A program made the position numbers and the translations under genes. Shown here one piece after another: positions 4,567-11,065 of a stretch of 11,240 nt of DNA. This stretch comes from Desulfobacterales bacterium (GTDB lineage: Bacteria > Desulfobacterota > DSM-4660 > Desulfatiglandales > Desulfatiglandaceae). Location: NCBI GenBank assembly GCA_022013615.1, contig JAKLQB010000814.1, positions 1-11,240 on the forward strand. Reading direction: 5' to 3'. The number at the start of each line of letters is the position of its first letter. Position 1 is the stretch's first letter. The notes under the pieces are model-generated. The model was not told the DNA's origin and did no database searches. It saw only the letters and a program-made list of their open reading frames with translations.

Positions 4567-4624
4567 CCCTTTTTAATCCTCAAGATCCTCAGATTGACCC
4601 CCGTCTGTGAAGGTCATATCTCTC

Positions 4625-4787
4625 GTTCAGGCAGGTCTTCTGACTTTCGGATCATCCTATTTGCCGCGCCTTCCCATTCCGTTTGAAACGGAACAGTGGC
4701 TTTTTGCAGCGTTCGTCCCCGAATACAGCGGCGGGCCCGTCCCCGATTCTTACGAGGTTCCCTATTAAGCTATACGAGCACCTGAAC
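4625..4787 (-). promoter_or_regulatory. Cobalamin riboswitch upstream of the btuFCD operon
   Basis: On the minus strand the conserved blocks are: P1 arm GTTCAGG, GTGCTCG, AATAGGGAA, CCCGCCGCTGTATTC, AGCCACTG, a hairpin TTCCGTTTCAAACGGAA, TGGGAAGGCGCGG, and AGTCAGAAGACCTGCC. P1 pairs perfectly over 7 bp (4781-4787 with 4625-4631). It is a second copy of the same class as the one before cobT, with a different sequence in the variable stems, so it is not a recent duplicate. It controls the import operon. Confidence 0.95.
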
Positions 4788-4854
4788 ATTAAAAAAAGCT
4801 TTATATAAAAAGGGATGAAAGTCAATAAAAAATTGACGTGTGTTTTTTAGTGTC

Positions 4855-5112: not shown

Positions 5113-5144
5113 CCCCAGTTGAATAGGTTTCACATTCAACGGGG
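5113..5144 (+). other. Stable hairpin in the cobU leader
   Basis: CCCC (5113-5116) and GTTGAAT (5118-5124) pair with ATTCAAC (5134-5140) and GGGG (5141-5144). This makes an 11-bp stem with one bulged A and a 9-nt loop. No T-run follows, so it is not an ordinary terminator. It lies about 85 nt before the likely cobU start. I cannot match the leader to a cobalamin riboswitch, unlike the two minus-strand leaders. Confidence 0.5.
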
Positions 5145-5229
5145 TGAAGATTCCATGGGGCATGAGCACAGATGCTGGGAAACAGCTATTGGTGAATGGG
5201 GGCTCGTTACAAAGATTGGAGGAAAAGCT

Positions 5230-5762
5230 TTGATCAGACAGAAAGAGAGAGAAATTATTCTGATTACAGGAGGATGCAGGAGCGGCAAGAGCCGCTTTGG
5301 TCAAAGGTGGGCTGAAGAGCGTGCCTCAAAACGACTCTTTCTGGCCACGGCCCGGGCTTCTGATGATGAGATGGTAGAGAGGATTCGCCGGCATCAGGCG
5401 GCACGAGGAAAAGGATGGGTCACCGTTGAAGAGCCTCAAATGGTCAATCGTGTAATCCAGGAACATGGATCAACCGTCGAAGTGATTCTTCTGGATTGCG
5501 TGACTATTTGGGTGAGCAACCTCTTAATGAAGGGGCTTTCCGATGAAGAAATTTTAGATCAGGTTAAAGGGGTAAAGGAAACCCTGTCTCAGGTTCCATG
5601 CTCGGTGGCTACGGTGACCAATGAGGTCGGCTGGGGAATAGTTCCTGACCACCCACTGGGAAGGAGGTTTCGTGATTTAGCCGGATCCGTAAATCAACTT
5701 CTGGCCCAGCCCGCGGCCGTGTCGTACTCATGGTGGCGGGGATACCTATGGTCGTGAAGTGA
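5230..5762 (+). CDS. cobU: Adenosylcobinamide kinase/guanylyltransferase CobU with a C-terminal frameshift
   Basis: CobU phosphorylates adenosylcobinamide and then forms adenosyl-GDP-cobinamide. Family motifs are clear: ILITGGCRSGKS P-loop, the RRHQAARGKGWVTVEEP region with the guanylylation-type histidine, LLDCVTIWVSNL, and TNEVGWGIVPDHPLGRRFRD. The TTG at 5230 is preferred because GGAGG stands 7 nt before it and CobU proteins normally start a few residues before the P-loop; the frame stays open back to 5119, with an ATG at 5155. The open frame ends at 5757 with an atypical tail. The normal ending VVLMVAGIPMVVK lies in another frame and stops at 5762. One missing base near 5716 would restore about 177 residues. 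This may be a real mutation or a sequencing error; most of the enzyme is intact. Confidence 0.88.
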
Positions 5763-5786: not shown

Positions 5787-6824
5787 CTAAAACTCAATCC
5801 CTCTTCTTGCCTTTATGCCTTTTCTGAAAGGATGTTTGATTTCTCTCATTTCGATGACGGTTTTTGACGCCTCTATGACGTCTGGATGAGCGTTTCGGCC
5901 GCTCAAAAGAATATGGAATCTCTGAGGTGTAAGAAAAAGCATTTCCCGGACCCGCGCGCCACTGATAAGCCCATAACTTGTGGCGATATTGATCTCATCC
6001 ATAACGAGAAGCCCGTAATCTTGTGAGTAAATTTGCCTTTGCCACAGTTCCCATGCCTGTTGGGCGGCCCGTCTATGTTTCTCAATGAGATATGGGCTGT
6101 GTAGATTCAAAAACCCTTTCCCCATGGTTTTGATTTCGAGATGGGGTAATCTTTTAATGGCCTTAACCTCTCCATATGGCTGAGGAGATTTTATGAATTG
6201 AAGGATCAAAGCAGGAATTCCTATACAGGAGGTGAGCAATGCTTTCCCCAGGCAATACGTGGTTTTGCCTTTGCCCCTTCCGGTAACCACCTCAATGGAG
6301 CCATTCCCTTCCGGGCAATTTCCCGCCTGAGGCTGGCGTTCCATAGTGCGCACGACCATTTCTGTTACCAAATCCGCTTTTTCGATAATCTGCTCGCTTG
6401 CTCTCGACCCGGAGAGGACCAACTCGACGTTTTCAGGTTTTTCTTCCATTAATTTTAAGACATCTTCAAGTGGAATAAGTCTCTGGCTTAACATCTGATG
6501 AATGCCGTTCAGAATTACAATGTCAAAATCTCCACTAAAAACCGCCGCTCTTGACCTTTGAAAGGCCTCGACAATCCTACGCGGACTAACCTCGTCTGTC
6601 TTTCCACCGGCCGAACTCTTTTCAACAGCGGAATGTTCAATGACCAAATTGGGTTTAAGGAGTGAGGAAGCCATTCTGGCCCCTTCCATCAACTCGTGGG
6701 GCGTGAAACAGGTGATCAGTGTACGAAGACCTTGCCCTGCTGCTCTGAGGCTCAGGCCTACAGGGGCAAAATTCATTTGATCAGATTCACTTGTATATAC
6801 TTGTATTAATCCCTTTTCCAACAT
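5787..6824 (-). CDS. cobO: Tandem CobO-like corrinoid adenosyltransferase with a degenerate N-terminal half
   Basis: CobO adenosylates reduced corrinoids using ATP. The C-terminal half (about 176-345) is a full CobO: P-loop GRGKGKTT (182-189), LLVMDEIN (272-279), LLSGRNAHPDVIEAS (306-320) and the ending HPFRKGIKARRGIEF. The N-terminal half (about 1-160) has the same layout: GLIQVYTSESDQMNFAPVG (5-23) where a P-loop would be, FDIVILNGIHQ (100-110) in place of the DEIN strand, and LVLSGSRASEQIIEKADLV (135-153) matching the second half. It has lost GKGKTT, so it should not bind ATP in the usual way. A normal CobO is about 170-200 residues; this one has 345. The gene converges with cobU, with 24 nt between their ends. 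The adenosyltransferase call is firm; the role of the first half is unknown. Confidence 0.88.
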   Translation of the reverse strand: MLEKGLIQVYTSESDQMNFAPVGLSLRAAGQGLRTLITCFTPHELMEGARMASSLLKPNLVIEHSAVEKSSAGGKTDEVSPRRIVEAFQRSRAAVFSGDFDIVILNGIHQMLSQRLIPLEDVLKLMEEKPENVELVLSGSRASEQIIEKADLVTEMVVRTMERQPQAGNCPEGNGSIEVVTGRGKGKTTYCLGKALLTSCIGIPALILQFIKSPQPYGEVKAIKRLPHLEIKTMGKGFLNLHSPYLIEKHRRAAQQAWELWQRQIYSQDYGLLVMDEINIATSYGLISGARVREMLFLTPQRFHILLSGRNAHPDVIEASKTVIEMREIKHPFRKGIKARRGIEF

Positions 6825-6969: not shown

Positions 6970-7725
6970 TCATCTAAGAGACTCTTTGGCCTTTTTCCAC
7001 GTTTTGTTTAAAATTTCTAAGGTTCCCTCACGGACTTCAGTACGGAAACCGAACAACTTGTTAAACTGGTTCACGTTTCGGCTCATTTGATCTTCAGACA
7101 TGATTGGCGTTGAAATAAGGAGGGAACGTTCGTAATGGGCGAATAGGCGTTTTGCCAAATCCAGAGGTATGCCGCCAAATTCCTGTTCGAACATTCGCTT
7201 CCAGTGGATCGACCAACCAGGTATCATGAAGAAGGTTCCGGCAACCTTACACAGCTCGCCATAGTAACATTCACGCCCTCCTATGATTAAACCGACACAG
7301 TCGTCTACAGGATGATCTTCATCCATGGGGATGAAGATGGGTACGCCGACTTCCGATAGCAGTTCATCCGGGTTTTCAAGGGCGTTGCCGCACAGACCAT
7401 ATCCAAGAAGTAATGCATCCACATATGGACTCATTTTTAGAGCCGCCTGCACTAATCCTTGCTGAAGGCTTTTCTTCCTATTATGGAGCCCTATTTCCAG
7501 CACGCAAGCCAACACCTCCAGATTATTTGAACGATTTGGATTGAACGCTTCTATATGTTGGATTCGCCTAAGATTTTCGAGTCCCTCCGACTCAAGCGCC
7601 TTGATAATACGAGCGGAAGGGATATCTTCAAGCACCGTAATCCGTGTCACCTCGGATTCCTTACTCAGAAGATAAGCGAATTCAAGTTCCAGAATCTCGC
7701 ATGTGAGGACACCCAATACCGCCAT
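6970..7725 (-). CDS. DUF1638 family protein
   Basis: The 251-residue protein carries the hallmark of DUF1638, LLLGYGLCGNALE (105-117), followed by a conserved acidic/His/Cys region IPMDEDHPVDDCVGLIIGG (132-150). C9, C112, H138, C143 and C153 are candidate metal or corrinoid ligands, but this is inference. No signal peptide or membrane segment is seen. AAGGAG stands 11 nt before the ATG. The biochemical function of this family is not established; as I recall, members are often found near corrinoid-dependent methyltransferase genes, and here the neighbour is cobO. It is transcribed divergently from the selenoprotein cluster. Confidence 0.8.
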   Translation of the reverse strand: MAVLGVLTCEILELEFAYLLSKESEVTRITVLEDIPSARIIKALESEGLENLRRIQHIEAFNPNRSNNLEVLACVLEIGLHNRKKSLQQGLVQAALKMSPYVDALLLGYGLCGNALENPDELLSEVGVPIFIPMDEDHPVDDCVGLIIGGRECYYGELCKVAGTFFMIPGWSIHWKRMFEQEFGGIPLDLAKRLFAHYERSLLISTPIMSEDQMSRNVNQFNKLFGFRTEVREGTLEILNKTWKKAKESLR

Positions 7726-8053: not shown

Positions 8054-8389
8054 TTGTTGCAGTCAAAGAAGGAAAAGTACTCCAAGCTCAGTGAACACCT
8101 GGATACCATCGCCATTTTGGCGAAAAGCTTGTCGGACGAAAACCGCCTTCGTATTCTTCTTTGCGTTGGCAACGGGAAAAAATCCGTCTCCCACATAGTA
8201 GAGGAACTGGTTCTTTCCCAGCCGCTTGTCTCCCATCACCTTAAGGAGTTGAAGAGAACCCTTTTGGTGAAGGTGGAGCGAGAAGGCCCTTTTATCTACT
8301 ATGAAATCGCCGACAAAAGAATCCTTACCATTCTCAAGGATTTGGATGTGTTAGCCACGGATTTGCTAACACAAAGAAAAACCTTTTAG
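8054..8389 (+). CDS. ArsR/SmtB-family winged-helix transcriptional regulator
   Basis: This 111-residue protein has the ArsR core: LAKSLSDENRLRILLCVGNG (22-41), then a helix-turn-helix with recognition helix SQPLVSHHLKELKR (55-68), and the wing VEREGPFIYYEIAD (74-87). The cysteine pair ELCVCDL typical of arsenic or cadmium sensors is absent; KKSVSHIVEEL occupies that place and C37 is the only cysteine. It may therefore sense something other than a classical metal, or sense through another site. The start is one of two adjacent TTG codons (8054 or 8057) behind GGGGGG; there is no ATG. It is the first gene of the plus-strand cluster, 17 nt before the first Sec-containing gene, so it probably controls that cluster through the operator at 7915-7942. 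Confidence 0.9.
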   Translation: MLQSKKEKYSKLSEHLDTIAILAKSLSDENRLRILLCVGNGKKSVSHIVEELVLSQPLVSHHLKELKRTLLVKVEREGPFIYYEIADKRILTILKDLDVLATDLLTQRKTF

Positions 8390-8406: not shown

Positions 8407-8862
8407 GTGAGTGCAAATAAAATTCAAGAAATAGTAAATGGTATGGACCCTGAAGAGGCTGCAGCGGAGATGGCCCTTGCGATGAAGAAACTGTTCCCTC
8501 TTCTGGGAGAGGAGGCTCGTCTAAGATTCGTCATGAGCCTGGTGGGAGACTCCGGTGAGGACAAAGTGGGAAGCATGGTCCACCTCTGACTGGCAGAATG
8601 CATGGACGAAGGTGTCGATCCAACGCAAATGTGCCAGAATCTGGTGGAAAAGGTGGCCCAGTCTAAACAACTCTCGGCAGTTGTTGAGCCTGAAGTCCTG
8701 GTTCTCTTTGAAAACTGGCTGGAAGAGCTGGAGACCGAGGTGATCTCTTGTGTCAGAAAAACCGGTTCTTCGGATCCCCTCGATCTTGCCGAGGCATTGG
8801 GCTTATCCAGCTCGGGCGCCACATTCCTTATCACCAAACTCAAAAGGGAAAATAAACTGTAG
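8407..8862 (+). CDS. Predicted selenoprotein of unknown family with winged-helix-like tail (Sec61)
   Basis: The frame starts at GTG 8407 (GGAG 8 nt upstream), meets TGA at 8587-8589 and continues in the same frame to TAG at 8860-8862, giving 151 residues if TGA encodes selenocysteine. The region around it reads SMVHL-U-LAEC, so Sec61 and C65 lie one helical turn apart, a plausible redox pair; C76 and C115 are further cysteines. The protein looks mostly helical. Its end, DPLDLAEALGLSSSGATFL (122-140), resembles a winged-helix recognition region. No signal peptide is seen, so it is probably cytoplasmic. A hairpin resembling a bacterial SECIS follows the TGA. I do not recognise the family. The downstream half could start at ATG 8602, but no ribosome-binding site precedes it and it lies in the hairpin. 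Confidence 0.75.
8590..8637 (+). promoter_or_regulatory. SECIS-like element for UGA at 8587
   Basis: Directly after the UGA an outer stem CTGGCA (8590-8595) pairs with TGCCAG (8632-8637). An inner stem TGGACGA (8603-8609) pairs with TCG-A-TCCA (8615-8622, one bulged A) and closes the loop AGGTG (8610-8614). The loop starts 21 nt after the UGA, within the distance used by bacterial SelB-bound SECIS elements, and begins with AG, meeting the rule of a G in the first two loop positions. Confidence 0.65.
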
Positions 8863-8871
8863 GGGCGAAGA

Positions 8872-10620
8872 ATGAAGGGAGGAAAAAAAGTCCTCTTGGC
8901 CTTTGTGGCCGTAGCTATCACGGTTGGCGTTCAGTGGTACAACACCCGTACTGTAGCTCCGAAAGAGTCTGCCTGGGAGGATGTGGTGGCCGAAGCCAGG
9001 CGTGGGGGCTACCAGCTTATCAGTACTGAAGCACTACAGGAGCTTTACAGTAAGAAACCCCGGAGCCTTTTTCTGGTAGACACACGCCAGGAATGGGAGT
9101 ACCGGACTGGACATATTAGAGGGGCCTTAAACTTTCCCTTTGAACCGACGTGGTTGTCGCGATGGCGAAAAAAGGGTGAGCTTGAGACATTCCTGGGGCC
9201 TGACAGGAATCGTCTTATCGTGTTTTACTGAGCCGGACTCACATGAGTCCGCAGTGACTCGGCGGCTAGGGTAGCCGTAATACTTGGGTATGAAAATGTC
9301 TACCGCGACCCTCAGGGGTATCCAGAATGGTATGCCAAAGGCCTGCCTGTGGATAGTTTTCCGGCAGGGCTCGCTACGATGGCCCAGGAGCCCGAGAAGC
9401 CGGGCCTTGTATACGGCTGGGCCATGATATGGACCCTCTTGGGTATCTTTGCAGGTGGTATGGCCCTTAATTTAACTCCATGTGTCTACCCTTTGATCCC
9501 CATTACGGTCTCCTATTTTGGCGGTCGCAGTGGAGGGGGGAAAGGCAAACTGATTGGCCACGGATTATTGTATATTGGCGGATTATCGTTAACAAATTCT
9601 TTGCTTGGCGTGGTTGCGGCCCTGACCGGGGGCCTCATGGGCGCGATGCTCCAGAACACTGTGGTGCTGAGCCTGGTAGCAGCTATTTTGGTCTTTTTTG
9701 CGAGCAGCCTTTTTGGTTTCTGGCAATTGCGGCTGCCAGCGAGCTTCACTCACAACGCCTCAAAAAGCTATACGGGTTATTTCGGAAGCCTATTTATGGG
9801 TTTGACTTTGGGAGTCGTGGCAGCACCCTGCATCGGCCCTTTTGTGCTGGGTTTGCTCACCTGGGTGGCGAGTATGGGTAGCCCATATCTGGGCTTCTTA
9901 ATCTTTTTTACCCTGAGCCTTGGCCTGGGCCTGCCCCTCTTTCTCTTAGGCATTTTCTCTGGTCAGATTGATAAACTACCTCGTTCCGGCGAGTGGATGC
10001 TGTGGGTGAGAAAGCTTATGGGATGGGTCCTGGTGGTGATGGCCGCTTATTTTATTCGACCCGTCTTACCCAAAACAGCAGGAATCTTCCTTTTAGCAGC
10101 CGCGGCTTTAGCCGCGGGGCTTCATCTTGGGTGGGTTGAGAGGTCAAGAGCCAGTTTTCGAGCCTTTAACTGGCTCAAGTCTGCTGCTTTGGTGGTGGGT
10201 CTGGTCATGGCCACTCTCCTCACCGGATCATATGTGATGCGTGGCCCTGGGGTTACCTGGCAGCCCCATTCTGACCAGTTGCTGGAAGAGGCACGAAGAT
10301 TAAGTAAACCGGTAATCATTGATTTCTCTGCCGACTGGTGTACGCCTTGCCGCGAACTGGATAATATAACGTTTCATGACCCTGAAGTCGTTAAACAGGC
10401 AAAGCGTGATTTCATCATGATAAAGGTTGATCTCACCCGAAGAGGCAACCCAATTCACGAACGCCTGTTGCGCCAGTATGGCGTCAAAGGCGTGCCAACA
10501 GTTGTGTTTTTGGATCGACACGGAAAGGAGAGGCGAGATCTCCGTTTGGTGGATTTTCTCCCGGAAGATCAGTTCCTGATCCGTATGGCTGAAGCCAAAA
10601 AAGGACCTGGTTTAAAATAG
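8872..10620 (+). CDS. Predicted di-selenocysteine rhodanese-DsbD-thioredoxin fusion protein
   Basis: Read with two UGA codons (9229 and 9244) as selenocysteine, one frame runs from ATG 8872 to TAG 10620, 582 residues. Residues 5-20 are a membrane anchor. Residues 50-155 form a rhodanese domain: VDTRQEWEYRTGHIRGALNFP, then LIVFY-U120-AGLT-U125-VRSDSAA, then LGYENVYRDPQGYPEWYAKG. In relatives both Sec positions are Cys. Residues 180-450 are a DsbD/CcdA membrane domain with the paired cysteines NLTPC204VYPLIP and APC320IGPF. Residues 465-570 are a thioredoxin domain with ADWC490TPC493 and the cis-proline GVPT. DsbD passes electrons from cytoplasmic thioredoxin to the periplasm; here rhodanese replaces the usual N-terminal DsbD domain, suggesting sulfane-sulfur handling. 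Conventional calling splits it into 8872-9231 and a gene near 9349. Confidence 0.85.
9245..9260 (+). promoter_or_regulatory. Candidate SECIS hairpin for UGA at 9229
   Basis: GAGTC (9245-9249) pairs with GACTC (9256-9260) around the loop CGCAGT, which starts 18 nt after the UGA and has G at its second position. An alternative hairpin, GGACTC (9235-9240) with GAGTCC (9245-9250) and loop ACAT, competes with it. This element is weaker than the other three and its stem contains part of the second UGA. Confidence 0.4.
9262..9278 (+). promoter_or_regulatory. SECIS-like hairpin for UGA at 9244
   Basis: CGGCT (9263-9267) pairs perfectly with AGCCG (9273-9277), extended by a G-T pair, closing the loop AGGGT (9268-9272). 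The loop starts 21 nt after the UGA at 9244-9246, the same distance as for the UGA at 8587. Confidence 0.6.
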
Positions 10621-10658
10621 ATCCAACCTATGTGATTAGCTGAAGATTCACCGAAGAG

Positions 10659-10676
10659 TCGCAGAGGTCGCTGCGA
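10659..10676 (+). other. Small hairpin between the DsbD-fusion and thioredoxin-like genes
   Basis: TCGCAG (10659-10664) and CTGCGA (10671-10676) form a perfect 6-bp stem with loop AGGTCG in the 127-nt gap between the two genes. No T-run follows, so it is not a standard terminator. Two short GATTCACC copies flank it (10645-10652 and 10682-10689). It may affect mRNA stability or be chance. Confidence 0.3.
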
Positions 10677-10747
10677 TGAATGATTCACCAAGGCCGGCCA
10701 AAAGCATTTTATCACTATTCAATTTTCAATAGCCAAACGAGGAGAGC

Positions 10748-11065
10748 ATGCTTAAAGTCAGATTTTTTCTCAACGAGCCCAACGGTAAGCCGTGAAAGCA
10801 TTTTCTGGAAATGATGCCCAGGCTGGGCAATAAGTATGATATTGAGATCGAAACCATATCCAAGCCCCGGGAAGAATACAGCATCGATGAGTATTTTGAC
10901 CTGGACCTCCCGGTTGCTCCTGCCGTGATGGTGGGTGAAGAGATTGTGGTGGAGGGCTCGGACGTTTCGTATGAGAAGCTCGATGAAGTCATCTGTAACC
11001 ACCTGGGTCTTCCCCCGCCGGAGCCTCAAAAAAAAGGAATCCTTGGTCGTTTTCTAAAAAGGTGA
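10748..11065 (+). CDS. Predicted thioredoxin/glutaredoxin-like selenoprotein (Sec16)
   Basis: ATG 10748 has a GAGGAG box just upstream. The frame meets TGA at 10793-10795 and continues to TGA 11063-11065, giving 105 residues with selenocysteine at position 16. The start MLKVRFFLNEPNGKP-U-KHF fits a thioredoxin fold: a first beta strand, then the redox residue at the N-terminus of helix 1. The later segment VAPAVMVGEEIVVEG (about 57-71) matches the cis-proline loop and last strands. The usual first cysteine of CxxC is replaced (NGKPU), and the only cysteine is in EVICNHLG, so it would act as a monothiol (selenol) type or with a partner. The tail is basic (GILGRFLKR). Conventional calling would start at ATG 10811 and lose the active site. 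No signal peptide: cytoplasmic, possibly reducing the DsbD fusion. Confidence 0.82.
10815..10829 (+). promoter_or_regulatory. SECIS-like hairpin for UGA at 10793
   Basis: TGCCC (10815-10819) pairs perfectly with GGGCA (10825-10829), closing the loop AGGCT (10820-10824). The loop starts 24 nt after the UGA. Its AGG start matches the loops behind two of the other three UGA codons. Confidence 0.6.

Follow-up and report, generated by a model that had tools for sequence, protein, structure and literature searches.

TsoB of a Desulfobacterales tso operon: a rhodanese/DsbD fusion with two closely spaced selenocysteine codons and a proposed transmembrane electron relay

The window, an 11,240-nucleotide stretch of contig JAKLQB010000814.1 from a Desulfobacterales bacterium (assembly GCA_022013615.1), carries a complete tsoR-tsoA-tsoB-tsoC operon on the forward strand, of which tsoA to tsoC occupy positions 8407-11065 with tsoR located upstream. 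Here, tsoR (8054..8389) encodes an ArsR/SmtB-type regulator (NCBIfam NF045707, 169.9 bits at a cut-off of 115; Pfam HTH_5), whose closest solved structures are ArsR-family repressors, for example CzrA and SmtB. The gene tsoA (8407..8862) starts with GTG and encodes a LULAxC selenoprotein (NF045695, 237.2 bits, cut-off 170) with Sec61 specified by the UGA at 8587-8589. It is followed by tsoB (8872..10620), which encodes a fusion of a membrane-anchored rhodanese, a DsbD transmembrane part and a thioredoxin, as assigned by NF045694, the Pfam domains and the conserved Cys and Sec residues. The last gene, tsoC (10748..11065), encodes a NEPxGxxU selenoprotein (NF045708, 150.7 bits, cut-off 45) with Sec16 at the UGA 10793-10795 and a TGA as stop codon. 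Four Sec codons are present within three adjacent genes, one in tsoA, two in tsoB and one in tsoC. The first-pass annotation of this DNA did not include tsoR, tsoA and tsoC, the latter two of which each carry an in-frame UGA.

With UGA read as Sec, the tsoB frame comprises 582 residues, contains exactly two UGA codons and is terminated by TAG. It is recognized by NF045694, titled "rhodanese/DsbD fusion-like selenoprotein TsoB", with 1016 bits at a cut-off of 805, covering residues 6-575. The window protein shares with this family the full length, the U-x4-U motif and the identical operon partners TsoA, TsoC and TsoR, and displays no defining difference. The original paper on the Tso operon is said to be that of Haft and Tolstoy from 2025. 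A review table lists it as a named three-selenoprotein operon with the motif UxxxxU for TsoB, and the passages of this review that deal with the operon give no function (PMC13188914). Among the matches listed in the literature searches, no further paper was recognised as dealing with TsoB, and as far as these searches showed, the details of tandem-hairpin decoding and of the electron relay described below were not found in print. Judged by its sequence, TsoB of the window is a member of an already named family, and it is the function that we infer here. The unusual selenoenzyme proposed in the first-pass annotation is supported as a Sec-Sec fusion, but it is not an isolated oddity.

Cobalamin-related genes occupy part of the window upstream of the operon. 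A gene for a DUF1638 protein (6970-7725, reverse strand) is divergent to tsoR and separates the tso operon from the cobalamin genes. Two cobalamin riboswitches (4613-4800 and 1446-1646) are located on the reverse strand as well, which also carries the btuFCD-like genes and cobT. By eye, the frame of the cobU-like gene at 5119-5757 is apparently broken near its end, the final CobU-like residues being in another frame, which could reflect either a genuine frameshift or a mistake in the assembly.

The two UGA codons of tsoB, for Sec120 (9229..9231) and Sec125 (9244..9246), lie in a loop that reads FYU-AGLT-U-VRSDSAA. ORF calling with translation table 11 splits the gene at this place into 8872-9231 and 9349-10620. 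The first-pass annotation had proposed two in-frame UGA codons in the rhodanese loop and a frame continuous through rhodanese, DsbD and thioredoxin; both are confirmed, the latter by the Pfam domains and the match to NF045694 over almost the entire frame. Its loop motif U120-AGLT-U125 is correct, and the C-x-G-x-x-C type that it names takes the form U-x4-U here.

Relatives were collected by a contig scan, in which 114 loci were confirmed and 80 were kept; some assemblies contribute two loci, so that these are 80 loci and not 80 genomes. Most of their record titles name Desulfobacteria or 'Deltaproteobacteria', and the others are Nitrospirae (L034), (uncultured) proteobacteria (L055, L058, L073) and 'bacterium' (L069). 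In 80 of the 80 kept loci both columns are UGA. A second sample consisted of 395 genomes drawn from the phylum of G003; it has G003, if not more, in common with the 80 loci. It yielded 23 matches above the TsoB cut-off in 22 genomes, and 22 of the 23 contain exactly two in-frame TGA. A further genome (G098) gave a match that is split into two pieces below the cut-off, of which one contains two TGA.

The single match above the cut-off without TGA (in G293) is the locus L091 (5493-7262), where the motif FYCAGPDCVRSD places Cys at both Sec columns. The same genome harbors a U/U copy, and no match to tsoA, tsoC or tsoR was obtained within the 14 kb fetched around L091. A second Cys/Cys homologue, P0004 (motif FYCTGQTCVRSDSAA, 64% identity overall), was obtained by a protein search with three matches among 637 candidates, the remaining two being partial. 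Because P0004 and L091 are Cys/Cys, both UGA columns are thiol/selenol positions.

These data bear on the reading that the UGA codons are true stops, so that the rhodanese would be truncated and DsbD would be a gene of its own from about 9349, or that they are sequencing errors. Standard ORF calling splits the gene in just this way. Nevertheless, UGA at both columns throughout the kept loci and in all but one of the genome matches above the cut-off, the two homologues with Cys at both columns and the covarying hairpins directly downstream speak against it, and we regard it as extremely improbable. A reassigned code, in which UGA stands for Trp or another amino acid, was also rejected. UGA is a normal stop here, as seen from tsoC, btuC and the DUF1638 gene, all of which terminate with TGA in the window; a reassignment is further contradicted by the confinement of sense UGAs to fixed Cys columns.

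For the partner proteins, the Sec column of TsoA is U in 38 of 39 loci, L071 not covering this column, and that of TsoC is U in 63 of 64. The exception is L006, whose tsoC looks broken because of a TAA at the Sec column (6331-6333). This TAA, an additional UGA at the TsoB W183 (Trp) column in L071 and a non-UGA stop interrupting the tsoB frame near residue 303 in L069 each point to a decayed gene or a sequencing error. L069 with its broken frame and the partial L039 enter the TsoB alignment as pieces.

The Sec machinery was searched in 15 genomes with tsoB. Here, selB and selD were found in 15 of 15 and selA in 14, being absent from G014. The tRNA-Sec exceeds the gathering score in 14 of the 15 genomes; the best match in G010 reaches 45.9 against 47. 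In each of the 15 genomes, the best selD match contains its own single in-frame TGA. Within the 395-genome draw, selB is present in 21 of the 22 TsoB genomes (G093 being without) compared to 350 of 395 overall (Fisher p 0.26). Since selB occurs in that many genomes, its presence is expected but not telling, and it was discarded as an uninformative discriminating profile.

On sequence level, both tsoB UGA codons are followed by conserved hairpins which comply with the majority of the rules for a bacterial SECIS. The first SECIS-like hairpin, assigned to Sec120 (9245..9260), pairs 9245-9249 with 9256-9260 around the loop 9250-9255, and the second, assigned to Sec125 (9262..9278), pairs 9262-9267 with 9273-9278 around the loop 9268-9272. 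Counted from the first UGA as nt 0, these stems are nt 16-20 with 27-31 and nt 33-38 with 44-49. Since the second UGA occupies nt 15-17, the stem of hairpin 1 begins inside it, its 5' strand starting with the GA of this codon. With the UGAs 15 nt apart and each having its own hairpin, hairpin 1 would be unwound as the ribosome advances to the second UGA.

Over 81 sequences, 98.2% of the cells in the two hairpins are paired compared to 94.3% after shuffling, and changes on both sides of a pair affect four pairs (shuffled 1.7) and 39 cells (shuffled 9.0). The values for pairing, double changes and covariation were reached by none of 500 shuffles, which ignore the relatedness of the sequences; the number of further pair types, one of the five pairing measures, was reached by 10 of the 500. 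Sliding the register by 1-3 nt drops the pairing to 27-58%. As both sides of the stems code for protein, the wobble positions are the telling sites. In hairpin 2, the wobble pair nt 35-47 (n=80) is G-C in 47 sequences, A-T in 23, C-G in four, G-T or T-G in four and unpaired in two, and the pair nt 38-44 (n=80) is C-G in 71 and T-A in nine. In hairpin 1, 97.3% of the cells are paired over the 81 sequences and zero pairs changed on both sides. Here, a strong codon bias relative to the rest of the same genes is observed, with GTC for V126 in 70 of 77 sequences (background 0.28), GAC for D129 in 79 of 80 (0.40) and TCG for S130 in 59 of 77 (0.12). L074, which has a deletion after the motif, was excluded from the codon counts and included in the pair counts.

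The bSECIS rules demand a loop of 3-9, a stem of 4-16, a G in the first two loop positions and a spacing of 16-37 nt. On form, both hairpins agree with them, hairpin 1 with stem 5, loop 6 and a spacing of 18 nt, and hairpin 2 with stem 6, loop 5 and a spacing of 21 nt. A G is the second loop position of each hairpin in 80 of 81 sequences; in either hairpin this G is part of Arg codons and may be set by the protein. Compared to the MFE limit of -7.5 kcal/mol, the minimal hairpins of the window reach -6.0 and -9.7 kcal/mol (medians over the 80 loci -6.3 and -10.2), and the 47-nt window folds reach -15.2 and -15.9 kcal/mol. Hairpin 1 alone is weak, ranging from -8.2 to 0.0 kcal/mol over the 80 loci, and an alternative hairpin competes with it in the window sequence. 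Single-sequence folds of the window showed no excess stability over shuffles (z -0.34 and -0.98).

The Cys/Cys copy L091 could have served as a SECIS control by loss of the hairpins, and no such loss was seen, as 11 of 11 pairs are still possible. In the fixed structure, its hairpin 1 is weaker (-1.7 vs. -4.5 kcal/mol) and its hairpin 2 stronger (-9.5 vs. -7.8 kcal/mol). L091 may represent a recent change from Sec to Cys, of which the hairpin-compatible sequence is perhaps a fossil, or may merely be G+C-rich.

For the other two selenoprotein genes, SECIS-like hairpins are predicted by consensus folding. That of tsoA (8603..8622; stems 8603-8609 and 8615-8622) derives from 39 sequences, 38 of them distinct, and contains one pair which is G-C in 22 and A-T in 15; that of tsoC (10815..10829; stems 10815-10820 and 10824-10829) derives from 68 sequences.

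Within TsoB, Pfam assigns a rhodanese at residues 53-155 (3.5e-13), a DsbD_TM domain at 186-399 (1.6e-39), followed by thioredoxin domains which start near residue 461. The window protein contains only six Cys or Sec residues, namely U120, U125, C204, C320, C490 and C493, which we take to be the three redox pairs of DsbD. All six positions are Cys or Sec across 82 rows (the window, the 80 loci and P0004), with one gap each at C320, C490 and C493. In the same 82 rows and apart from gaps, the rhodanese residues D70, R72, E76, S128 and D129 are without exception, and H81 and R127 have one exception each. A hydrophobic segment is found at residues 1-25; together with the DsbD-like topology, it suggests that the rhodanese and thioredoxin domains are periplasmic.

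The AlphaFold model of TsoB, for which an alignment of 43 of the 82 rows was used (P0001, P0004 and 41 loci; 33 sequences for TsoC), is of moderate confidence with a mean pLDDT of 74 and a pTM of 0.49. Its structural matches include the DsbD C-terminal domain (1uc7, 5.6e-7), rhodaneses (6mxv, 8.7e-5) and, at a weak level, a polysulfide-sulfur transferase (1qxn, E 1.3e-3). The last of these is one of the pointers to sulfur, next to the dsrA genomes and the ArsR-rhodanese fusions described below.

The transmembrane and thioredoxin parts of TsoB with C204/C320 and C490/C493 resemble DsbD (NF001419, PRK00293). In contrast to DsbD, the N-terminal domain is a rhodanese with two Sec, and the score of TsoB against NF001419 is 235.4 bits, below the cut-off of 330. 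Four related DsbDs (L093-L096, L093 being from G003, which also has tsoB) share 49-54% identity with TsoB in the membrane and thioredoxin parts. Their N-terminal region is an ordinary one and contains a C-x4-C pair, the spacing of which equals that of U-x4-U. Because these DsbDs carry a C-x4-C N-terminal domain at this place, the best reading of TsoB is that of a DsbD in which a U-x4-U rhodanese has taken the place of the acceptor domain. The first-pass annotation had proposed a Sec-Sec rhodanese coupled within one protein to a transmembrane electron carrier; this is supported by the U/U columns, the two Cys/Cys homologues, the SECIS-like hairpins, the Sec machinery in genomes with tsoB and the six conserved redox residues. 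The rhodanese families PQQ_CXXCW (TIGR03865) and rhodanese_LYCAU (NF041203), whose names imply an additional Cys or Sec at or close to the loop, match the rhodanese domain of TsoB weakly and far below their cut-offs, with 28.7 of 128.05 and 27.3 of 115, respectively.

Mechanistically, it appears reasonably probable that TsoB uses a DsbD-type relay across the membrane to reset a Sec-Sec rhodanese after the uptake of sulfane sulfur, and that its UGA codons are each decoded with their own hairpin. A cytoplasmic donor, either thioredoxin or the Sec-bearing TsoC, would supply electrons to C204/C320 in the membrane, which would hand them to C490/C493 of the periplasmic thioredoxin domain, and this pair would reduce U120/U125. 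In this process U120 would accept a sulfane sulfur atom from polysulfide, thiosulfate or persulfide, U125 would resolve the U120-bound sulfur under release of sulfide, and the relay would reset the Sec pair. TsoC, for which Pfam gives no match, would act as a redox partner in the cytoplasm. Persulfide, selenium or thiosulfate chemistry, as suggested in the first-pass annotation, is a putative role.

A reading in which TsoB is a Sec-boosted reductant of oxidised protein thiols or peroxides outside of the membrane, the rhodanese being a mere scaffold without sulfur transfer, would fit to the entirely DsbD-like C-terminal part, to the three redox pairs as in DsbD and to the x4 spacing of the Sec pair, which equals that of the N-terminal pair in the four related DsbDs. 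Nevertheless, it appears rather unlikely, since rhodanese residues besides the Sec pair (D70, R72, E76, S128, D129, H81, R127) are conserved and since two further observations, from the genomes and the gene neighborhoods, point toward sulfur. The first is the co-occurrence with dsrA (E <= 1e-80), which is found in 21 of the 22 TsoB genomes compared to 190 of all 395 genomes drawn (Fisher p 1.4e-6, ancestry being ignored). The second is a gene for an ArsR-rhodanese fusion, which lies directly upstream of tsoB in place of tsoA in 15 of the 80 loci; a C-x4-C rhodanese loop, YCRGPYC, with the same spacing as in TsoB is present in all 17 such fusion genes found. The gene tsoA lies upstream in 39 of the 80 loci, 36 of which also have tsoR and tsoC. 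No locus has both tsoA and the fusion, and 26 of the 80 have neither, some of them being on short contigs.

The upstream ArsR-rhodanese fusions fit a sulfane-sulfur signal. ArsR-type repressors which respond to sulfane sulfur, such as sHdrR and SoxR, exist (PMC12423496), and an ArsR-type regulator likewise heads the tso operon. In difference to sHdrR, where Cys50 and Cys116 are 66 residues apart (PMC12423496), C35 and C86 of the ArsR-rhodanese fusions are separated by 51. TsoR in turn differs from both repressors by having no conserved Cys pair; its C37 is found in 18 of 37 sequences, and a role of TsoR as a cysteine persulfide sensor is unsupported. For TsoA, U61, C65 and C76 are invariant in 39 sequences. 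Its all-helical model (mean pLDDT 77, pTM 0.39) gave nothing below E 0.85 against solved structures, the winged-helix matches listed spanning only about 43 residues, and the Pfam HTH match is below the cut-off (18.2 of 21.9).

Several further genes accompany tsoB. Two tsoC-like genes follow it in L026, L028, L042, L051, L062, L074, L079 and others, and a HUIPC motif occurs nearby in L006, L010, L016 and L020. The selenoprotein motif HSGNPxU, which is that of TsoX in the review table (PMC13188914), is found in the flanks in L019, L050, L053 and L078. A protein family is located near the end of tsoB in seven loci (L020 9194-9703 and six others), one member of which is related to GcvH (NF045810). 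Some sulfur oxidation systems make use of lipoyl-type carriers, and by this analogy the GcvH-related neighbor may be relevant to tso. Beside the Cys copy L091, cobU is found together with cobT- and cobS-like ORFs (by eye). Of the 18 neighbor clusters present in at least five loci, few of which are typed, the only cobalamin gene recognised is an ABC-ATPase cluster (nine loci, including an ORF of the window), so that the cobalamin genes beside tso are probably a coincidence.

In 20 loci, a VTT/DedA-type membrane protein family, one member of which was typed by Pfam, is encoded close to tsoB and in the same orientation. DedA proteins have a role in selenite uptake. This neighbor, together with the four Sec codons across three adjacent genes, would suit an operon that handles selenium, in which TsoB would reduce selenotrisulfide, selenium(0) or selenite adducts outside of the membrane and thereby aid uptake or detoxification. 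We consider such a function even less likely than the reduction of protein thiols or peroxides: TsoB exceeds the cut-off in only 22 of the 395 genomes and selB is present in 350, which shows that most Sec users lack TsoB, and zero selenium genes were found among the neighbor families typed, a minority of the clusters.

Taking the relay with a sulfane-sulfur substrate as the preferred reading, TsoB might even represent a mechanism of a new kind, in which sulfate reducers would reduce sulfane sulfur with a selenium-based transmembrane enzyme, built from a DsbD rewired to a Sec-Sec rhodanese as acceptor and decoded by tandem SECIS elements, the first made in part of the second Sec codon, with a forced hand-over; this wider proposal is a tentative one, and we would sooner doubt than accept it at present. 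If the relay is correct, it would be a case of sulfate reducers moving electrons across a membrane to a site at which selenium handles sulfur. The overlapping hairpins of tsoB would offer a compact case for the bacterial decoding of two close Sec codons. Furthermore, the number of redox residues, the C-x4-C DsbDs, the Cys/Cys homologues and the association with dsrA make the proposed redox relay of TsoB a testable one.
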